Positions 55,222 through 64,000 of a stretch of DNA of 64,000 bases are shown here, one piece after another. Under the pieces are notes generated by a model. The model ran no database searches. It saw only the letters and a program-made list of their open reading frames with translations, and was not told the DNA's origin. Positions within the stretch are counted from its first letter, which is position 1, and each line of letters begins with the position of its first letter. A program made the translations under genes and the position numbers. Source of the stretch: Brachionus plicatilis (lineage: Eukaryota > Rotifera > Eurotatoria > Ploima > Brachionidae); the NCBI GenBank assembly GCA_010279815.1, contig QEOQ01000493.1, positions 62,001 through 126,000 on the forward strand. Direction: 5' to 3'.

Positions 55222-58077
55222 CTTAATTATGTGACTTGACTGAAATAAAAAAAAATATTAAAAAATACTTGAAGTGTTTATTTGAAATACAAATTTCGAA
55301 TTTAACTTAAACTTTTTTTCTGGTGCTTAAGTAAGCTATTATTATTATAATTGAATACATCTTTAATATGCAAAATATAATGTCATTTATATATTGAAAT
55401 AAATTTAAGCCTCTATTTAGATTGTGTGAGTATGTGTTTATGTTTTTGTTGATAGATATTCTTTAACAATGGGCAAAAAACTTCAAATTTCAAAATAGAT
55501 TTTTTTATTATTACAAAAACCTGGGCAAAAATAAAATGATGAATAAATACAATTATGTTCAAATTTAATTTACGACTCTAAATAAGCAGGCGCATTGTAT
55601 TTTTTGATTTCGTAAAATACAAACTGAATATGATGCATTTGCCACCGCTTACTTAAAACATCATTTGAAAATTGTAAATAAAATTCTTCTTTTTTTTGCG
55701 TATTTTAAATTAAACTCGAAAGTTTGAATTCTAATTAATGTGTCACTATTTTTCTTATTTTGATTCTTAAATGTTTGGTTCATGCTTGAGACATTTTAAC
55801 TAAAATAAACAAATTGTTTTCATTAAAAAAAAAAACATTTAAAGAAATATATTTAAAATTCTACAATACATTTTAGTTGAAAATGTACAATTAAATTGAA
55901 TTCGAGCATTTTTTTAGACACGGTTTGTGATTTTTAATCGAAGACAAGATTTTAAAATTGATGTACTTTCATCCATAATTTAGATAAATAAGCAAATGAT
56001 GTGATGCTCTTATTATTAAAAATTTGTGTTCGAAATGTAAATCTTTTTTGTTTAAAAATTTAATTAGGTACGAATTAACAAAGCTTGTAACGGAACATAG
56101 TCCTTTGGGCCCATTGTTTAAATTAATTTTTTAAAAAATGATAAGTTAGTTTATAATCAAAAAATTTTAAAAATTAAGAAAACCTTTTACTTAAAAAATA
56201 ATTTTGAAATTTAAAATTTTACAGATTAAATGCTCTGGCCTTTTATTAGTTCAAAAAAATTTGAAATTCCTTAAAAGATATTTATATCATCAGTTACGAT
56301 TGTCACATATCTATAGCAAGTCCTAGGAATCCTTCAGTTTTTGGTCACATTTTTTGACTATAGGTAAAAATATATAAAAAAAGTTAAAAGTTGAATCATC
56401 AATTCAATCTATATTTGATTCTATTTCGATAAATTTTTGGTGGCATTCTAAATCATCCAAATTTATTATAGTATTAGACTTTTTCAAATAATTTGAATAA
56501 GTCTATTAAGAATTTCTTAAAAGACTTCTAGAAATTCCTCTCTAAAATAGAAGTCGTTTTGATAAAATTTTTACATAAAATAATTTTTTAACTTGCTTAT
56601 ATGTAAAAATATAGCTTTGTTGTAAATCTTATCACATTTACTTCACAACATCACGTTTATTCTATTATCTTCAAAATTTATTTTCTCAATATTTATTAAC
56701 TATTTTTATATTTTTAAATTAATTACTGTATTATTTAATCTAAATATTGTTTTTGAATTTTTTTGAATATATAAAAAAATAATGCTCATTTATATTTATT
56801 TGGGACTATTGTTTTAATATAAATTTTAATTTTTTTGCTTATTTGAATTTTTATTTTAAGAAAATAGCAGACATTCCATTCGATACCAGTATGTGTCTTT
56901 TAATTTAATTTAATAAAATTTAATATTATAATTTTGCACTCGTCTGTAGTCATTAACGCAAATTAAACGCAAAAAAGTCTTTATTTGTATAATTAGTAAT
57001 TTGAATAACTTTAGAATTTAAAATCTCAATTTAAATATTTATTTTATTTGCTTTTTAACCAAAGGACTGTTTTTTACGATAACTTGAAAGTGATTGTTTA
57101 AAGCTGTTACAATTTTTCTCATTCATTTGAAGTATTTGAATAAAGTTTAATTAAGATTTTGATTTTTTAGATTTTTGTTGGATTTTTTTTTAAATTCACA
57201 ATGCCACATGTCAAATTCAAGTTTTTAAACAAATTTTATGAAAGGTAAAATCTTAAAAAAAAATTTTTTATTCAGAGATAAGTATGAAATGAATCGAAGC
57301 TTGGCTGTTACTTTTAAAAATAAATTTTTGAATTGAGATAATTAAATTTTAATCATTAAGTGGTGTCATGAAAATATTTTTGAATCGAAGATCTTACATA
57401 ACATAAAAAAAACAATAATACAAACTGTTTTCCAAAATCGTTTTGAGAGTTATTTTTTAATCGAAAAATAAAATTTGCAACAGCTACAAAATTTTGAACT
57501 GGAATATCTATTTATGTAAAATTTATTTCTATTAATTTAAACCTAAATTAATTACTAAAGCATAATATCACACCATATATACAAAAAATTATTCAAAATA
57601 AATATTTCTTCCTTTTTATAATTAAAAAATTTTTTTTAGATCCTTCTGAAAATAAAAAAAACTAATTTTTTCTAATCGATATGCATCCTTTGTTCAAAAA
57701 CCAGAGATTGCTGTCCAAGAAATGATTTTTAGGTTTGATTATCCTCTGATTAAGAGTTACGAATTATTCAAAGGAAATGAAAATTAATAAAATTTTTAAA
57801 TCTTGCATTTTGCATTTTTAATTTTTATTAAAATTTGACTCAATTGAAACCAATTATGCAAACATTTTTTATTTAGATTATTTGGTATCGTTAGATAAAT
57901 TCTTAATGAGCAAGTATTACTAGTGAAAGATCTATTCGATACATTGAAATTGAAAGAAATTACTAAATAAAGCTAAATTAATTTTACTTTACCATATTTA
58001 AATTATGAATAAATTTTATGAAACTATAAATTTGAAATTTATTAATAAAATATTCTTTAAAAAAAATTAAAACAATA
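55222..58077. other. Intergenic DNA between divergent genes, 2.9 kb
   Basis: It should contain the promoters of the CLCC1-like gene (-) and METAP1 (+). Apart from AT-rich sequence with homopolymer runs I see nothing assignable. Confidence 0.6.
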
Positions 58078-59605
58078 ATGTCGACTATCGAACAAAATCC
58101 AATCTTATGCTGTACTCCTGGCTGCAATCAAACAGCCAAGTTGAGGTGTCCAACTTGTATTAAACTTGAAATAACAACTGGGTCGAATTTCTGTTCACAA
58201 GTAAAATATGAATCTAAGAAAAATTAATTAGTTACCATGATATTAAGGAATGCTTCAAAAAATATTGGATGGTTCACAAAATGTTTCATAAAAATAAAGA
58301 TGAATACAATCCATGGCCGGGTTTTAAATTCACTGGAACATTAAGACCTTATCCAGTGGTATGAATTTAAACAATAATTTTAGATAAATTTGATTTTAAA
58401 ATTTGAATTAGACTGAAAAAAAAATAGTCCCAGCACATATACCTCGTCCAGATTATGCTGATCATCCCCAAGGACATCCGCTAAGTGAAATAGCAGAAAG
58501 AGGGTCAACCGTGGTAAAAGTTTTGGATGACGAGGAAATTGAAGGCCTTAGAGTTGCTTGCAAAGTAAAAAAAGAAAATTGAAAAAATAAGAAAATATTT
58601 AATTTTTTATAAAGCTAGCTAGAGAGTGTTTGGATGAGGCAGCTCAAGCGGCAACTATCGGTGTAACCACTGATGAGTTGGATCGAATAGTGCACGAATC
58701 AGCTGTTGAGAGAGAGTGTTATCCATCTCCTTTAAATTACTATAAATTTCCTAAGTCTGTTTGCACGTAACTATCTCTAAAATCAAAATTATTTAAAAGG
58801 TTTTAGAAAAAAAATATTTATTTAGCTCGGTTAATGAAGTTATATGTCATGGAATACCAGACAAAAGACCTCTTCAAAACGGTGATATCTGCAATGGTAG
58901 TTGATCTTTTCAAATTAAAAAAAATTTAAATTTAAATTAAATTAAGTTGATGTTACTGTTTATCATAGAGGCTTTCATGGTGATCTAAATGAGACCCTGT
59001 TTATCGGTGAGGTCGATGAAAAGTCAAAACTTTTAACTAAAGTAACACATGAAGCTATAATGAAAGCAATTAATATTGGTATAGACAATGTTCAATTTTA
59101 TTATTTATTTAATAATTGGAAATTTTAAGTGAAACCTGGAATGAGATTTAGAGAAATTGGAAATGTTATTCAAAATCATGTTTCTCCATTTGGGTTTAGT
59201 GTTGTCCGTTCTTATTGTGGTCATGGAATTCATAGGCTATTTCACTGTGCGCCAAACATACCACACTATGCGAGTAATATATTTTTGTATATTTAATTTA
59301 TTAAATTTTTTATTTTTTTTAAGACAACAAGGCTGTCGGTGTTGCCAAAGTAGGAAACTCTTTTACCATCGAGCCTATGATTTCTGAGGGAACATGGCGA
59401 GATGAACATTGGGTAAAGTTAATCAAAAATGTATGTTTTATTATTTTTTATTTTTATATAGCCAGATGATTGGACCGCAGTTACAGCTGATGGAAAACGT
59501 TCTGCACAATTCGAACATACTCTTTTAGTCACTGAGACAGGATGCGAAATATTGACAAAAAGACCTGCCAAGAACGGACAACCATGGTTTATGGACTCAA
59601 TGTAG
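58078..59605 (+). CDS. METAP1: Methionine aminopeptidase 1
   Basis: Nine exons, join(58078..58200, 58248..58358, 58412..58564, 58615..58766, 58826..58896, 58947..59078, 59130..59273, 59324..59412, 59462..59605), give 372 residues. Introns are only 46-59 bp. The N-terminus carries the C6H2 zinc finger of type 1 enzymes ([17 protein letters not shown], then [18 protein letters not shown]), which docks on ribosomes. The M24 peptidase domain keeps all metal ligands: D205, D216 (GDLNET), H279 ([11 protein letters not shown]), E312 (FTIEPM) and E343 (SAQFEHT). The enzyme removes the initiator Met from nascent chains in the cytosol. Length is close to the human protein (386). Everything expected is present, and no oddity is seen. 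Confidence 0.95.
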
Positions 59606-60534: not shown

Positions 60535-63500
60535 ATGTCGGATATCTCTAAATTAGAGACTGTTTTTAAAAATTCAAATGTGCAACCAGAAGATTTAGTC
60601 TATAAAATATATCTTAATTCAAATGATTTGAAGCTGGTCAAAATTTTGAGCGAACAATGGGCTTTTCCACTTAAAGGTTTCATGAACGAAAATGAATATT
60701 TTCAATCTTTATTTTTTAAATATCTGAAAATTAACGGTAAATAATTAAAAAAAAAAAAAATTATTATATTTTGTTTTAAAGGAAAAATTTACAATCAGCC
60801 AATTCCTATTGTACTAAGTTTCAGCGAACAAAATGAAAACAATCTTATAAATAGAATAAAAAAGATCAGCTTGATGTTTGATCAAAAAAATATTGGTTTT
60901 ATGGACAAAGTATCTTTTTTTCAGACCCATGACGAGTTTAATCAATTGGAGAGTGAGTGGTTAATTGGCGGTGATTTATTAGTTTCTGAAAAAATTAAAT
61001 TCAACGATGGCTTAGATGAGTATAGATACAGTCTAGTAGAATTGAAAAATCAATTTAAAATTCTAAATGTAAATAAATTTTAGTGATAATTCTTCGACTA
61101 AAGTTTAAATAAATTTAAGGCTGATGTTGTTTTTGCTTTCTGCTGTAGTAATCCAATTGATAGCTCATGCGGATTATTTATTAGACAATTCAAAATAGAT
61201 TTAATTCAAAAAGGATACAAAAATCCCATTTTTCTCTTATTTAATCTTGATAATGACAGAAGAGGCAAAAGTTTTCCAGCTTCTATTATTTTGGAACAGC
61301 AAAGTGCTATTTTCGAATCAATCGATCTGAAATTCATTGCCACTTTGATTCCATCACCTGTCGAAGTTGACAAAAAAATAACCGAGTTACAATGGGTTTT
61401 AAAAGTATTAATAAACATTGGGGTCTCTTATTTTATTTTATCTGATGAAAAAAATTCAAATGATGCACTAAAACTAGTCAAAATGGCACCGGGTCTTGAA
61501 GACATTCAAATAACCTCATATTTTGTCAACAAATCGATACAGATAGATTCATTAGAAAACTTTTTAAATGAGAATAGAAAAAACTCTAGTGAAATAATGA
61601 ATCAAAAAGCATGGGAAATTTTAGAAAACTATTCAAAAAATTTATTTATTGATTCTGATATGAGCAAAACTTCAAATATTAATGAAAAAAAATTTGTTTT
61701 AGTGGCTAATGCACGTTCGGGATCAACCTATTTGGCTTCATTACTTCGATGTCATTATCAAGTTGGAATGAAGAGTGAATTGTTAAATGAAAGCATTAAA
61801 ATAGAACCAGAAAATATTTTCTCATATCTAAACAAAAGTTTGGTTTCATGCAACAAACCAATTGTTGGTTTTAAAGTTCTAAATGACCAAATACCTTTAA
61901 GGAATATTAAAAGTGATGATCTATTGCGTTCAATTAATGCAAAATTTGCAATAATTTTATGGCGACAGCATGTACTTGGTATGTTTTTTACAAAATATTT
62001 AAAAATTTTTTTTGATTATATTCTAGATACCTTTGTTTCATTGAAAATTGCTGAAATTTCAAACAATTGGTACAAAAGTAAATACGCCAAACATGTTCAT
62101 CATGAAATCGAGCTTGAGGAGTCTCAAATTTGGAGCTATTATGGTGCTCAAATGGAAGCCTGGCGTTTAGTGGCAAAGTATTGGCCGATTGAAGTCGAAC
62201 CTTACTTTCTTACTTATGAAGATTTTGTTAAAAATCCAATTCTAGAAGTAATAAAATAAAGAGTTAAATTCTAATTTTTATTTTAAAATAAATTAAGACA
62301 AAAAAAGCTCTGGCTTATATGATGCTAGATCCAGAGGATCAAGACTATGAGTCAGACTCGGACAAAATGAATCCAAAAACATTGCCAGAAAAAGTTATTA
62401 ATTGGAACCAGTTGTCTGATAAAGTGAAATCGCTTAGAATGAACGTTCGTGAAATATTTGAGCAAGAATTATTCAAAACTTTAAAATTAAACAACAATAA
62501 AATTAATTTTTTACCAGAACGAGAACCTAGATCCCCTAAAGGAATTATTTACAGGGTCTCGGAGCCATTTATATCAGAAAAATCTGTAAAATATATCAAT
62601 CAAAGTTTGAGCGAAAAATCGATTTCTTCCGCAAGTCCATGGCCTAGAATTTTAGCAAGCAAACTGAAAGACTTGTACCAAGTTGCGACTGCATTTCCAT
62701 GCTCAAATGGTTTTACAGCTTTAGTTTTGGCACTACAATTGGCTGGTATTAAGCCAAACGATCAAGTTGTTTGTCCAAGCTTTACCATGATAGCTGTGGC
62801 TAATTCAATTCATTATTTGAATGCAACTCCAATTTTTGTGGACAATGCCGACTTAAGCTACAATCCAGATTGGAATACAATTGAAAAAAAAATCAACCCA
62901 AATACCAAAGCAGTTATTATTTGCCATACTTTAGGCGTTCCAATTGAATACAATAAATTAAAAACAATTACAAGTGAGTGCAAAAAAAGAAACATTTTTC
63001 TCATTGAAGACATCAGTGAATGTGTTGGAGTCAAGATAAAAATCGACGATGAAAAAGCCATGTTCCTAGGTTCATTTGGCGATTTGGCTTGTGCTTCTTT
63101 ATATGCAAATAAGATCATAAATTGTGGAGATGGTGGCTTTGTTTTGTCCAAGTGCTACTCGGATCAAACTAAATTGGAAAGCTTTGTCAACCACGGTTTT
63201 ACTAATTCCTACCATTTTGTTCACTTTAAGCCGTCTATAAATGGCAAAATAAATGGAATGGCAGCTGCATTTGCCTTAGGCTCATTTGAATCGCTGGATT
63301 TTATAATTGAAAAACGAAAACATTTGACAAATTTATATAGAACAGAATTGTCAAGAATAAAATGCATAAAAACAATTCCTAAATGTGGAGATTTTGATAC
63401 CGCGTGGGTATTCGGAATAGAGTGTCCGGACAAACATACACGGAATGCTTTAAGAAAACATTTAATGAACTTTGGCATAGAGACTAGGGATTATTTTTTT

Positions 63501-64000
63501 CCATTACACTTGCAGCCTGCATTTTCGGCATTTTATGACCAAAATTCGGCTTTTCCCAACTGTGAACGATTGGGCTCAGTAGGGTTTTATTTGCCAACTT
63601 ACACGGACCTAAAAGACTCCGAAGCCAAATATATTATATCTAAAGTTTATGATTTTTTTCGAATACCTTACTCGGTTTCATTTGATTCAATCTCTAAAAC
63701 AAATGATTCGTTCCTAGCAGTGGAATTCAACGCCAAAAGCCTTGATCTAAATGTTAAAAAAATGGACCCATGGGGTAATCTAAATGCACTGCCAAAATTT
63801 AATATATTTAACAAGGCCATCTCAATCAAGCAAAAAATGGATGATTTTTTTAATAAAAATAATTTAGTCGAGCCTTGGTCTCTTTTGGACGAGCTCAATG
63901 TACTTCTTAAGAACGCTAAAAACTATCCGCAAATAAATGAATACTTTGAGCCATGTGTCAAGTATTTAAAAGACGAAATTTGTCTTGAATGTTCAAGCGA
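60535..64000 (+). CDS. ATP-sulfurylase-like / sulfotransferase / sugar aminotransferase fusion (3' partial)
   Basis: Five exons, join(60535..60736, 60782..61068, 61120..61978, 62027..62247, 62298..>64000), give at least 1,090 residues, still open at the edge. Residues 1-345 follow animal PAPS synthase's ATP-sulfurylase half (LSEQWAFPLKGFMNENEY, WLIGGDL, FNDGLDEYR, MAPGL at 285). The catalytic QxRNPxHNGH site reads CCSNPIDSSCG, and the GRDPAG loop is lost. Residues 355 to about 590 are a sulfotransferase: PAPS loop ARSGSTYL (361-368), LWRQHVLDTFVSLKIAE (443-459), YEDFVKNP. From about 600 comes a DegT/DnrJ/EryC1 aminotransferase: SNGFTAL (659-665), IEDISE with Asp761, and LYANK with the PLP lysine Lys795, then GDGG. 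About 100 unassigned residues follow. Exon 5 starts with the helix expected after YEDFVKNP, so the join lies within the sulfotransferase, and the last two domains share one exon. Expected role: a cytosolic or Golgi enzyme for a sulfated or amino-sugar conjugate. Substrate unknown. Confidence 0.85.

Follow-up and report, generated by a model that had tools for sequence, protein, structure and literature searches.

A Brachionus plicatilis gene joining a degenerate ATP-sulfurylase-like domain to six enzyme domains related to bacterial glycan-biosynthesis genes

Introduction

What would a single animal gene make if it joins a region resembling ATP sulfurylase, a sulfotransferase (ST) and a DegT-family sugar aminotransferase, and where would such a gene come from? 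This question is raised by a gene at the end of the 64,000-nucleotide stretch of the rotifer Brachionus plicatilis analysed here (hereafter, the window; contig QEOQ01000493.1, positions 62,001 to 126,000, forward strand), in which an initial annotation had recognised these three regions. The regions are present, in that order, in one animal gene. Their description is incomplete, since an O-methyltransferase (MT), two glycosyltransferases (GTs), and a glycosidase follow past the window. The full order is degenerate ATP sulfurylase, ST, DegT aminotransferase, MT, GT4-like, GT2/GT64-like, and GH5 glycosidase. The explanation that we consider probable, with some reserve, is that a bacterial glycan-biosynthesis cluster was acquired horizontally and fused into one frame, and that the protein is a cytosolic six-enzyme assembler acting through the pathway proposed below.

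Taken singly, the domains are all of known kinds; the novelty lies in the chain and its spread. No description of this megaprotein was found in literature searches, subscription papers and supplements excluded, and a word search did not find it in the main texts of PMC13342648, PMC5490193, PMC11258130, PMC3499245, and PMC5531438.

Gene structure and reading frame

The introns between the five exons of the window (Table 1) all exhibit GT-AG borders, and the exons join in frame without a stop, as originally proposed. Exon 5 overruns the window by 3.4 kb, and the stop lies at window coordinate 67436, within L004 (G000:C51:121001-131000). A further GT-AG intron of 60 bases, hidden and in frame, is located at 67244-67303 and shows as a 20-residue insert relative to the relatives in alignment A1. 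Splicing it out yields VFIFSFRDP, the same as in P0002, a B. plicatilis gene model that was deposited separately. The corrected protein comprises 2215 residues encoded by six exons, and the window holds residues 1 to about 1091, approximately half of it. Introns 1, 2, and 4 contain in-frame stops; intron 3 (48 bases) is open in frame, and its residues are missing from the relatives. P0002 has the same N-terminus and shows 38 differences over 1995 aligned residues. As this model is without some pieces, it seems likewise to be a prediction.

As exon 3 holds parts of both the ATP-sulfurylase-like region and the ST, these two belong to one gene. The view that the gene is not a merge of neighbours holds for the following regions too, ST and DegT being joined in other species also. 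A merge of neighbouring genes or an assembly artefact is hardly credible, given that the separately deposited model agrees, that exons 3 and 5 each cover two or more domains, and that the fusion recurs in other phyla. No second copy was found in a six-frame search of the rotifer genome (102.9 Mb), in which three candidates were scored and the only match was the gene itself. Two other DegT-profile matches in the genome were rejected as paralogues; their open reading frames (ORFs) resemble, by eye, NFS1 and sphingosine-phosphate lyase.

Relatives in other animals

A search of 5.8 billion proteins returned 40 matches, of which the weak P0041 was dropped from the alignments, and a second search added bdelloids. 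The six-enzyme order, from ST to GH5, recurs in bdelloid rotifers (Rotaria socialis and Rotaria sp. Silwood2), in a tardigrade (Paramacrobiotus), and in springtails (Orchesella cincta and O. dallaii). The initial annotation knew of no animal protein of this architecture, which stands for the sulfurylase part, seen only in Brachionus, and fails for the remainder. The models are partial in the fungus gnats (that of Bradysia is without the ST start and that of Pseudolycoriella is fragmentary), in the mite Dinothrombium (without GT2 and GH5), and in the nematodes Panagrolaimus and Plectus (without ST, and with DegT partial or absent). The further relatives are one EukProt entry and many metagenome proteins. 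All six enzyme domains are present in 22 of the 47 aligned rows; 21 rows are without a resolvable ST, and many of the rows missing a domain come from short or incomplete models. The database name of the Orchesella cincta protein, "GDP-perosamine synthase", covers one domain only. P0046, from Rotaria sp. Silwood2, exhibits more than 500 unrelated N-terminal residues ahead of the ST, possibly a merged model or a lineage-specific N-terminal addition.

A tree of the DegT and GT4-GT2 segments was built from the 35 rows having both segments and from seven bacterial loci, 12 of the 47 rows being dropped for a missing segment. The method was a quick one and gave warnings of long branches and odd letter composition, the window row included. 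The 35 fused rows form a single clade against the seven bacterial loci, with a Shimodaira-Hasegawa-like approximate likelihood ratio test (SH-aLRT) value of 100. Bdelloids are the first branch of this clade, and Brachionus does not join them. The topology is easier to reconcile with transfer between animals or with old loss than with simple descent, and is proof of neither of the two.

Conservation of the catalytic domains

The Pfam check suggested in the initial annotation gave a divided result: PUA_2 (2e-12) and DegT (2e-62) are over the cut-offs in the rotifer protein, whereas the models for ATP sulfurylase and ST, like those for MT and GT, score below. For the ST, the rotifer scores 21.7 against a cut-off of 27, the bdelloid 23.3 (below), and the tardigrade 34.0 (above). 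For Methyltransf_24, with a cut-off of 26.3, the scores are 18.4 in the rotifer, 22.9 in the bdelloid (below), and 30.7 in the tardigrade, which passes. The GT2 cut-off is passed by the bdelloid and missed by the rotifer, and the GT64 model scores 14.7 in the rotifer against a cut-off of 21.3.

Residue conservation was counted over the 47 aligned rows, the denominators being the rows that hold the column. The hallmarks of STs dependent on 3'-phosphoadenosine 5'-phosphosulfate (PAPS) are present, namely the 5'-phosphosulfate-binding RxGS loop and the 3'-phosphate-binding Arg/Ser. In the RSGST loop, the arginine and the glycine are each found in 26/26 rows and the serine in 27/27, with the threonine variable (14/27). 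In the DegT domain, the lysine that binds pyridoxal 5'-phosphate (PLP) is kept in 39/40 rows and the aspartate in 38/38; the best NCBIfam model is LegC (TIGR04181), with 173.7 against an equivalog cut-off of 420. The MT model, examined for an assignment to the TylF / Methyltransf_24 type, adopts a class I methyltransferase fold, and its nearest folds include the macrolide sugar O-methyltransferases MycF and SpnH. Its acidic residues are kept in 41/45, 42/45, and 43/46 rows. The GT4-type domain exhibits a predicted GT-B fold with the conserved glutamate, and the GT2/GT64-like domain a predicted GT-A fold with the acidic metal motif DDD in 43/43 rows. In NCBIfam, the GT2 part gives weak matches to HpsE and EpsD, both exopolysaccharide enzymes. 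The GH5 domain scores 47.8 with Pfam Cellulase (cut-off 23.5), and exhibits the acid/base glutamate in 42/42 rows and the nucleophile glutamate in 35/36. When the MT-GT-GT-GH5 profile was searched against the PDB, the matches were confined to the GH5 part. As the key residues are kept in nearly all the rows that have them, we argue that the ST, DegT, MT, GT, and GH5 domains, unlike the sulfurylase domain, are probably active.

The ATP-sulfurylase-like region

Residues 24-297 are clearly homologous to ATP sulfurylase and PAPS synthase (best PDB E 1e-39), with the Pfam ATP-sulfurylase model at 19.3 against a cut-off of 24.3. The fused copy shares 32% identity (3e-62) with the other ATP-sulfurylase gene of the genome. 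In the fused copy, HNGH is replaced by DSSC and QLR by CCS, the GRD loop is deleted, and the C-terminal FISGTKMR stretch is absent, whereas the other gene retains HNGH, the GRD loop, and the remaining compared motifs. The earlier reading of this region as a sulfate-activating enzyme is not supported, given the loss of the first motif and of the loop, and the domain looks catalytically dead. The sulfurylase region is present, according to BLAST, in two of the 47 aligned rows, the window protein and P0002, and thus only in Brachionus. Two further rows, which made four in the first domain count, were rejected when BLAST showed unrelated sequence.

The adjacency of this domain to the ST, together with its homology, could suggest that the protein produces PAPS itself, with the sulfurylase feeding the ST next to it. 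This is highly improbable, as the other gene of the genome keeps every motif that the fused copy has lost, as no match to an adenosine 5'-phosphosulfate (APS) kinase was obtained in the Pfam scan of the protein, and as so few rows have the domain at all. Since the HxGH motif and the GRD loop are lost, a supply of APS or PAPS by the protein is unsupported. The domain may instead have a scaffold, ligand-binding, or regulatory role. Between the window protein and P0002, it differs at 3 of 345 residues, compared with 12/304 in GT4, 12/253 in GH5, and 1/382 in DegT. These differences are few per residue relative to GT4 and GH5, and more than in DegT, and therefore do not resemble free decay, although the comparison is shallow. 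An N-terminal domain of PAPS-synthase type was probably gained in Brachionus. In that case, a foreign megaprotein would have taken on a dead metabolic enzyme as one of its domains.

Bacterial counterparts

With regard to bacteria, eight loci were obtained from a scan of GTDB genomes. Seven of them comprise a GT4-GT2 gene and, no more than 3.4 kb from it, a DegT gene, and the eighth exhibits just a GT2-type match, interrupted by a stop. ST genes are present in three of the eight loci and an MT gene in one. A 4,6-dehydratase-like gene adjoins DegT in all five loci scanned for it (GDP_Man_Dehyd; best NCBIfam LegB, below cut-off). The enzymes of the N-terminal part of the animal protein are thus neighbouring genes in some bacterial loci. 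A search by profile yielded 367 GT4-GT2 relatives; among the 120 listed, bacterial where named, GT4, GT2, and GH5 form a single protein in 70, and GT4, GT2, and MT in 10. The bacterial GH5 of these proteins is homologous to the animal GH5, and bacteria such as Sorangium thus have the C-terminal half of the animal chain as one predicted protein. The initial annotation had suggested looking for this architecture in other rotifers and in bacteria; the order from ST to GH5 is whole in bdelloids, and bacteria have partial clusters.

In a tree of GT4-GT2 comprising 73 bacterial rows (including 23 of the 70 GH5-bearing rows) and 15 fused rows, with the root undefined, the fused rows lie on one side of a branch, beside the bacterial rows and not nested among them. 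The megaprotein might also be an ancient, vertically inherited eukaryotic protein lost in most lineages, the bacteria having cousins or being recipients of parts. This is consistent with the position of the fused clade outside the sampled bacteria and with the EukProt entry, which has the megaprotein. We nevertheless consider it rather improbable, as the matches are patchily spread, Brachionus stands apart from the bdelloid rotifers, and separate clustered genes occur in several bacterial phyla.

Several other bacterial arrangements were observed. In Mycobacterium ostraviense, some 41 kb separate a GH5 match from the GT4-GT2 gene, provided that the contig numbering agrees. One contig of an alphaproteobacterial metagenome-assembled genome (MAG) carries, over about 12 kb (L064/L065), two GT4-GT2, two dehydratase-like, two ST-like (one weak), and one DegT gene. 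Two Bacteroidota proteins (L019:7944-10514 and L020:9107-11695) are GT4-GT2-GT2, with a third GT in place of GH5 or MT. L066-L069 are stand-alone GH5 genes, kin of the GH5 of bacterial GT4-GT2-GH5 proteins, in small (0.9-2 Mb) proteobacterial genomes. A viral origin was rejected after a pattern scan of viral contigs, whose 27 matches included no relative. Carriage on plasmids was likewise rejected, as a tblastn search of plasmids with P0132 (E 1e-60) gave no match.

Proposed pathway and product

We infer the direction of transfer, the substrates, the order of the reactions, and the product from sequence. A host 4,6-dehydratase encoded elsewhere in the genome, either GDP-mannose 4,6-dehydratase or a dTDP-glucose dehydratase-like enzyme, would supply a nucleotide-4-keto-6-deoxy sugar, which the DegT domain would aminate, giving a 4-amino-4,6-dideoxy sugar. 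Both GTs (GT-B and GT-A) would then build a glycan with this amino sugar, the MT and the ST would decorate it, and the GH5 would trim, release, or transfer the product. The Pfam scan of the animal protein gave no match to a dehydratase domain. The rotifer genome encodes a GDP-mannose 4,6-dehydratase (604.7 bits; NCBIfam cut-off 415) and a dTDP-glucose dehydratase-like gene (332; cut-off 365), and the 4-keto-6-deoxy donor sugar is therefore probably at hand. Two GDP_Man_Dehyd matches of equal score, at G000:C26:670817-671812 and 703966-704961, lie in opposite orientation about 33 kb apart, and one of them is the GDP-mannose 4,6-dehydratase.

The megaprotein and its animal counterparts probably build a decorated sugar. 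A sulfated amino-sugar product remains plausible, and our best guess is a glycan or glycoside that carries sulfate and O-methyl groups and contains a 4-amino-4,6-dideoxy sugar. A narrower form of this explanation, compatible with it, is that the product is a soluble glycoside of low molecular weight (a secondary metabolite or protectant) and not a polymer or a cell-surface glycan. The combination of DegT, MT, and ST is typical of tailored natural products, the MT folds are near MycF and SpnH, and no membrane-spanning segment stood out in a simple scan of the rotifer protein (no 19-residue window above 1.53 Kyte-Doolittle). In contrast, the GT pair resembles polysaccharide enzymes such as heparosan synthase and the exostosins, and HpsE and EpsD are exopolysaccharide enzymes, which makes the small glycoside possible and on balance unlikely. 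More tentative still is the proposal that the exostosin-like GT pair, in several micro-animal phyla, makes a sulfated amino-sugar polymer, i.e., a second and foreign route to sulfated glycan, which the dead sulfurylase would have joined in Brachionus in a regulatory or scaffolding role.

Several observations weigh against the acquisition of a bacterial cluster that became a six-enzyme assembler. No single bacterial cluster with all six parts was found, ST and MT being present in few loci; none of the eight loci exhibits an ORF like the rotifer GH5; and the fused rows are not nested among bacteria in the GT4-GT2 tree. The GT-carrying bacterial genes are rare among the sampled genomes. With profile A5 at E 1e-40, the one match among 395 genomes from the phylum that includes Fulvivirga marina was F. 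marina itself. At E 1e-30, three of 390 genomes from its order matched (F. marina included, one match partial), and among 394 genomes from the class that includes Planobispora, Planobispora alone did. For profile A6, the classes to which two proteobacterial MAGs belong gave five matching genomes each (out of 385 and 369), with seven of the ten matches GH5-only, and no other query genes were found near GH5 at the four such loci where BLAST located it. The ST, MT, and GT domains of the rotifer score under the Pfam cut-offs, as do the ST and MT of the bdelloid. The DegT domain is below every NCBIfam equivalog cut-off listed, so that its sugar is not assigned by score, and single rows exhibit a glutamine in place of the DegT lysine and an aspartate in place of the GH5 nucleophile. 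To our knowledge, a cytosolic sulfated polymer would also be unusual for an animal.

If horizontal acquisition of the cluster is true, a pathway kept by bacteria as several genes became a single animal gene, in a striking multi-step acquisition. Its spread would take in the rotifers, the tardigrade, and the springtails named above, together with the gnats, the nematodes, and the mite, which have partial models. Animals would then be predicted to contain a glycan or glycoside with an amino sugar that has so far gone undescribed and can be searched for directly.

Features of the window and neighbouring genes

The features of the gene are collected in Table 1. The gene is flanked by a gene with zf-C6H2 and Peptidase_M24 domains and by a ribosomal protein S10 gene, and contamination is unlikely since it sits between these two. 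The former, directly upstream on the same strand at 58036-59605, resembles methionine aminopeptidase 1 by eye, with its zf-C6H2 and Peptidase_M24 exons; the S10 gene lies downstream at L004:9095-9472 (window coordinate about 68095).

Table 1. Exons, domains and key sites of the megaprotein gene, in window coordinates
Feature	Position	Strand	Evidence or remark
Exon 1, PUA_2-like N-terminal part of degenerate ATP-sulfurylase region	60535..60736	+	PUA_2 22-118, E 2e-12; donor GTAAATAA
Exon 2, further ATP-sulfurylase-like region	60782..61068	+	PDB ATP sulfurylase / PAPS synthase matches, E 1e-39 to 7e-37
Exon 3, end of ATP-sulfurylase-like region (~residue 345, 61665) and start of ST	61120..61978	+	Both regions in one exon
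ATP-sulfurylase HxGH site, reads DSSC (residues 177-180)	61159..61170	+	HNGH in the other ATP-sulfurylase gene of the genome
ST 5'-phosphosulfate-binding loop RSGST (residues 362-366)	61714..61728	+	Conservation across aligned rows
Exon 4, ST continuation with 3'-phosphate-binding Ser (454)	62027..62247	+	Ser in 27/27 rows holding the column
Exon 5, part in the window	62298..64000	+	Continues to intron at 67244; last exon then to stop 67436
DegT/DnrJ/EryC1 aminotransferase domain (residues about 604-985)	62538..63683	+	E about 2e-62; best PDB relatives perosamine synthetases
PLP lysine codon K795 (in YANK)	63111..63113	+	Lys in 39/40 rows holding the column
Spacer, DegT to MT domain	63684..63983	+	Alignment A1
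O-methyltransferase-like domain start (residue 1086)	63984..64000	+	Profile and fold matches
GT4-like domain, residues 1301-1612	beyond window, in L004	+	Models and folds
GT2/GT64-like domain, residues 1613-1880	beyond window, in L004	+	Models and folds
GH5 domain, residues 1881-2215	beyond window, in L004	+	Profile, PDB matches, catalytic residues

Comparison with known systems

The exostosins EXT1, EXT2, and EXTL3, which make the heparan sulfate backbone, and the Pasteurella heparosan synthase likewise comprise tandem GTs and are the top Foldseek matches of the GT model. The GT-A domain of the megaprotein aligns well with the folds of heparosan synthase and EXTL2, with 8-14% identity to the exostosins and heparosan synthase in the fold alignments. 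The whole-model TM scores against these enzymes are low, and the placement of the domains therefore differs. In addition, the GT-B part is closest to GT4-type enzymes, unlike in the exostosins. Exostosins carry an N-terminal membrane anchor, whereas no anchor was seen in the simple hydropathy scan of the megaprotein, in which the GTs are fused to an aminotransferase, an MT, an ST, and a GH5.

PAPS synthase (PAPSS) shares the ATP-sulfurylase-like N-terminus with the megaprotein, in which the active-site motifs are lost and an APS kinase domain was not found in the Pfam scan. With regard to GDP-perosamine synthase and the LegC-type DegT enzymes, the best solved relatives are perosamine synthetases, and the PLP lysine and the aspartate are kept; the megaprotein DegT differs in falling under the equivalog cut-offs and in being embedded in a chain of 2215 residues. 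The clusters of Fulvivirga, Chryseosolibacter, Planobispora, and Mycobacterium gastri / ostraviense exhibit DegT beside GT4-GT2, some with ST or MT, but as separate genes with 28-32% identity and with a dehydratase gene, a part missing from the animal protein. In P0132 of Sorangium sp. So ce1128 and similar bacterial proteins, homologues of the GT4, GT2, and GH5 domains are arranged as in the animal protein.

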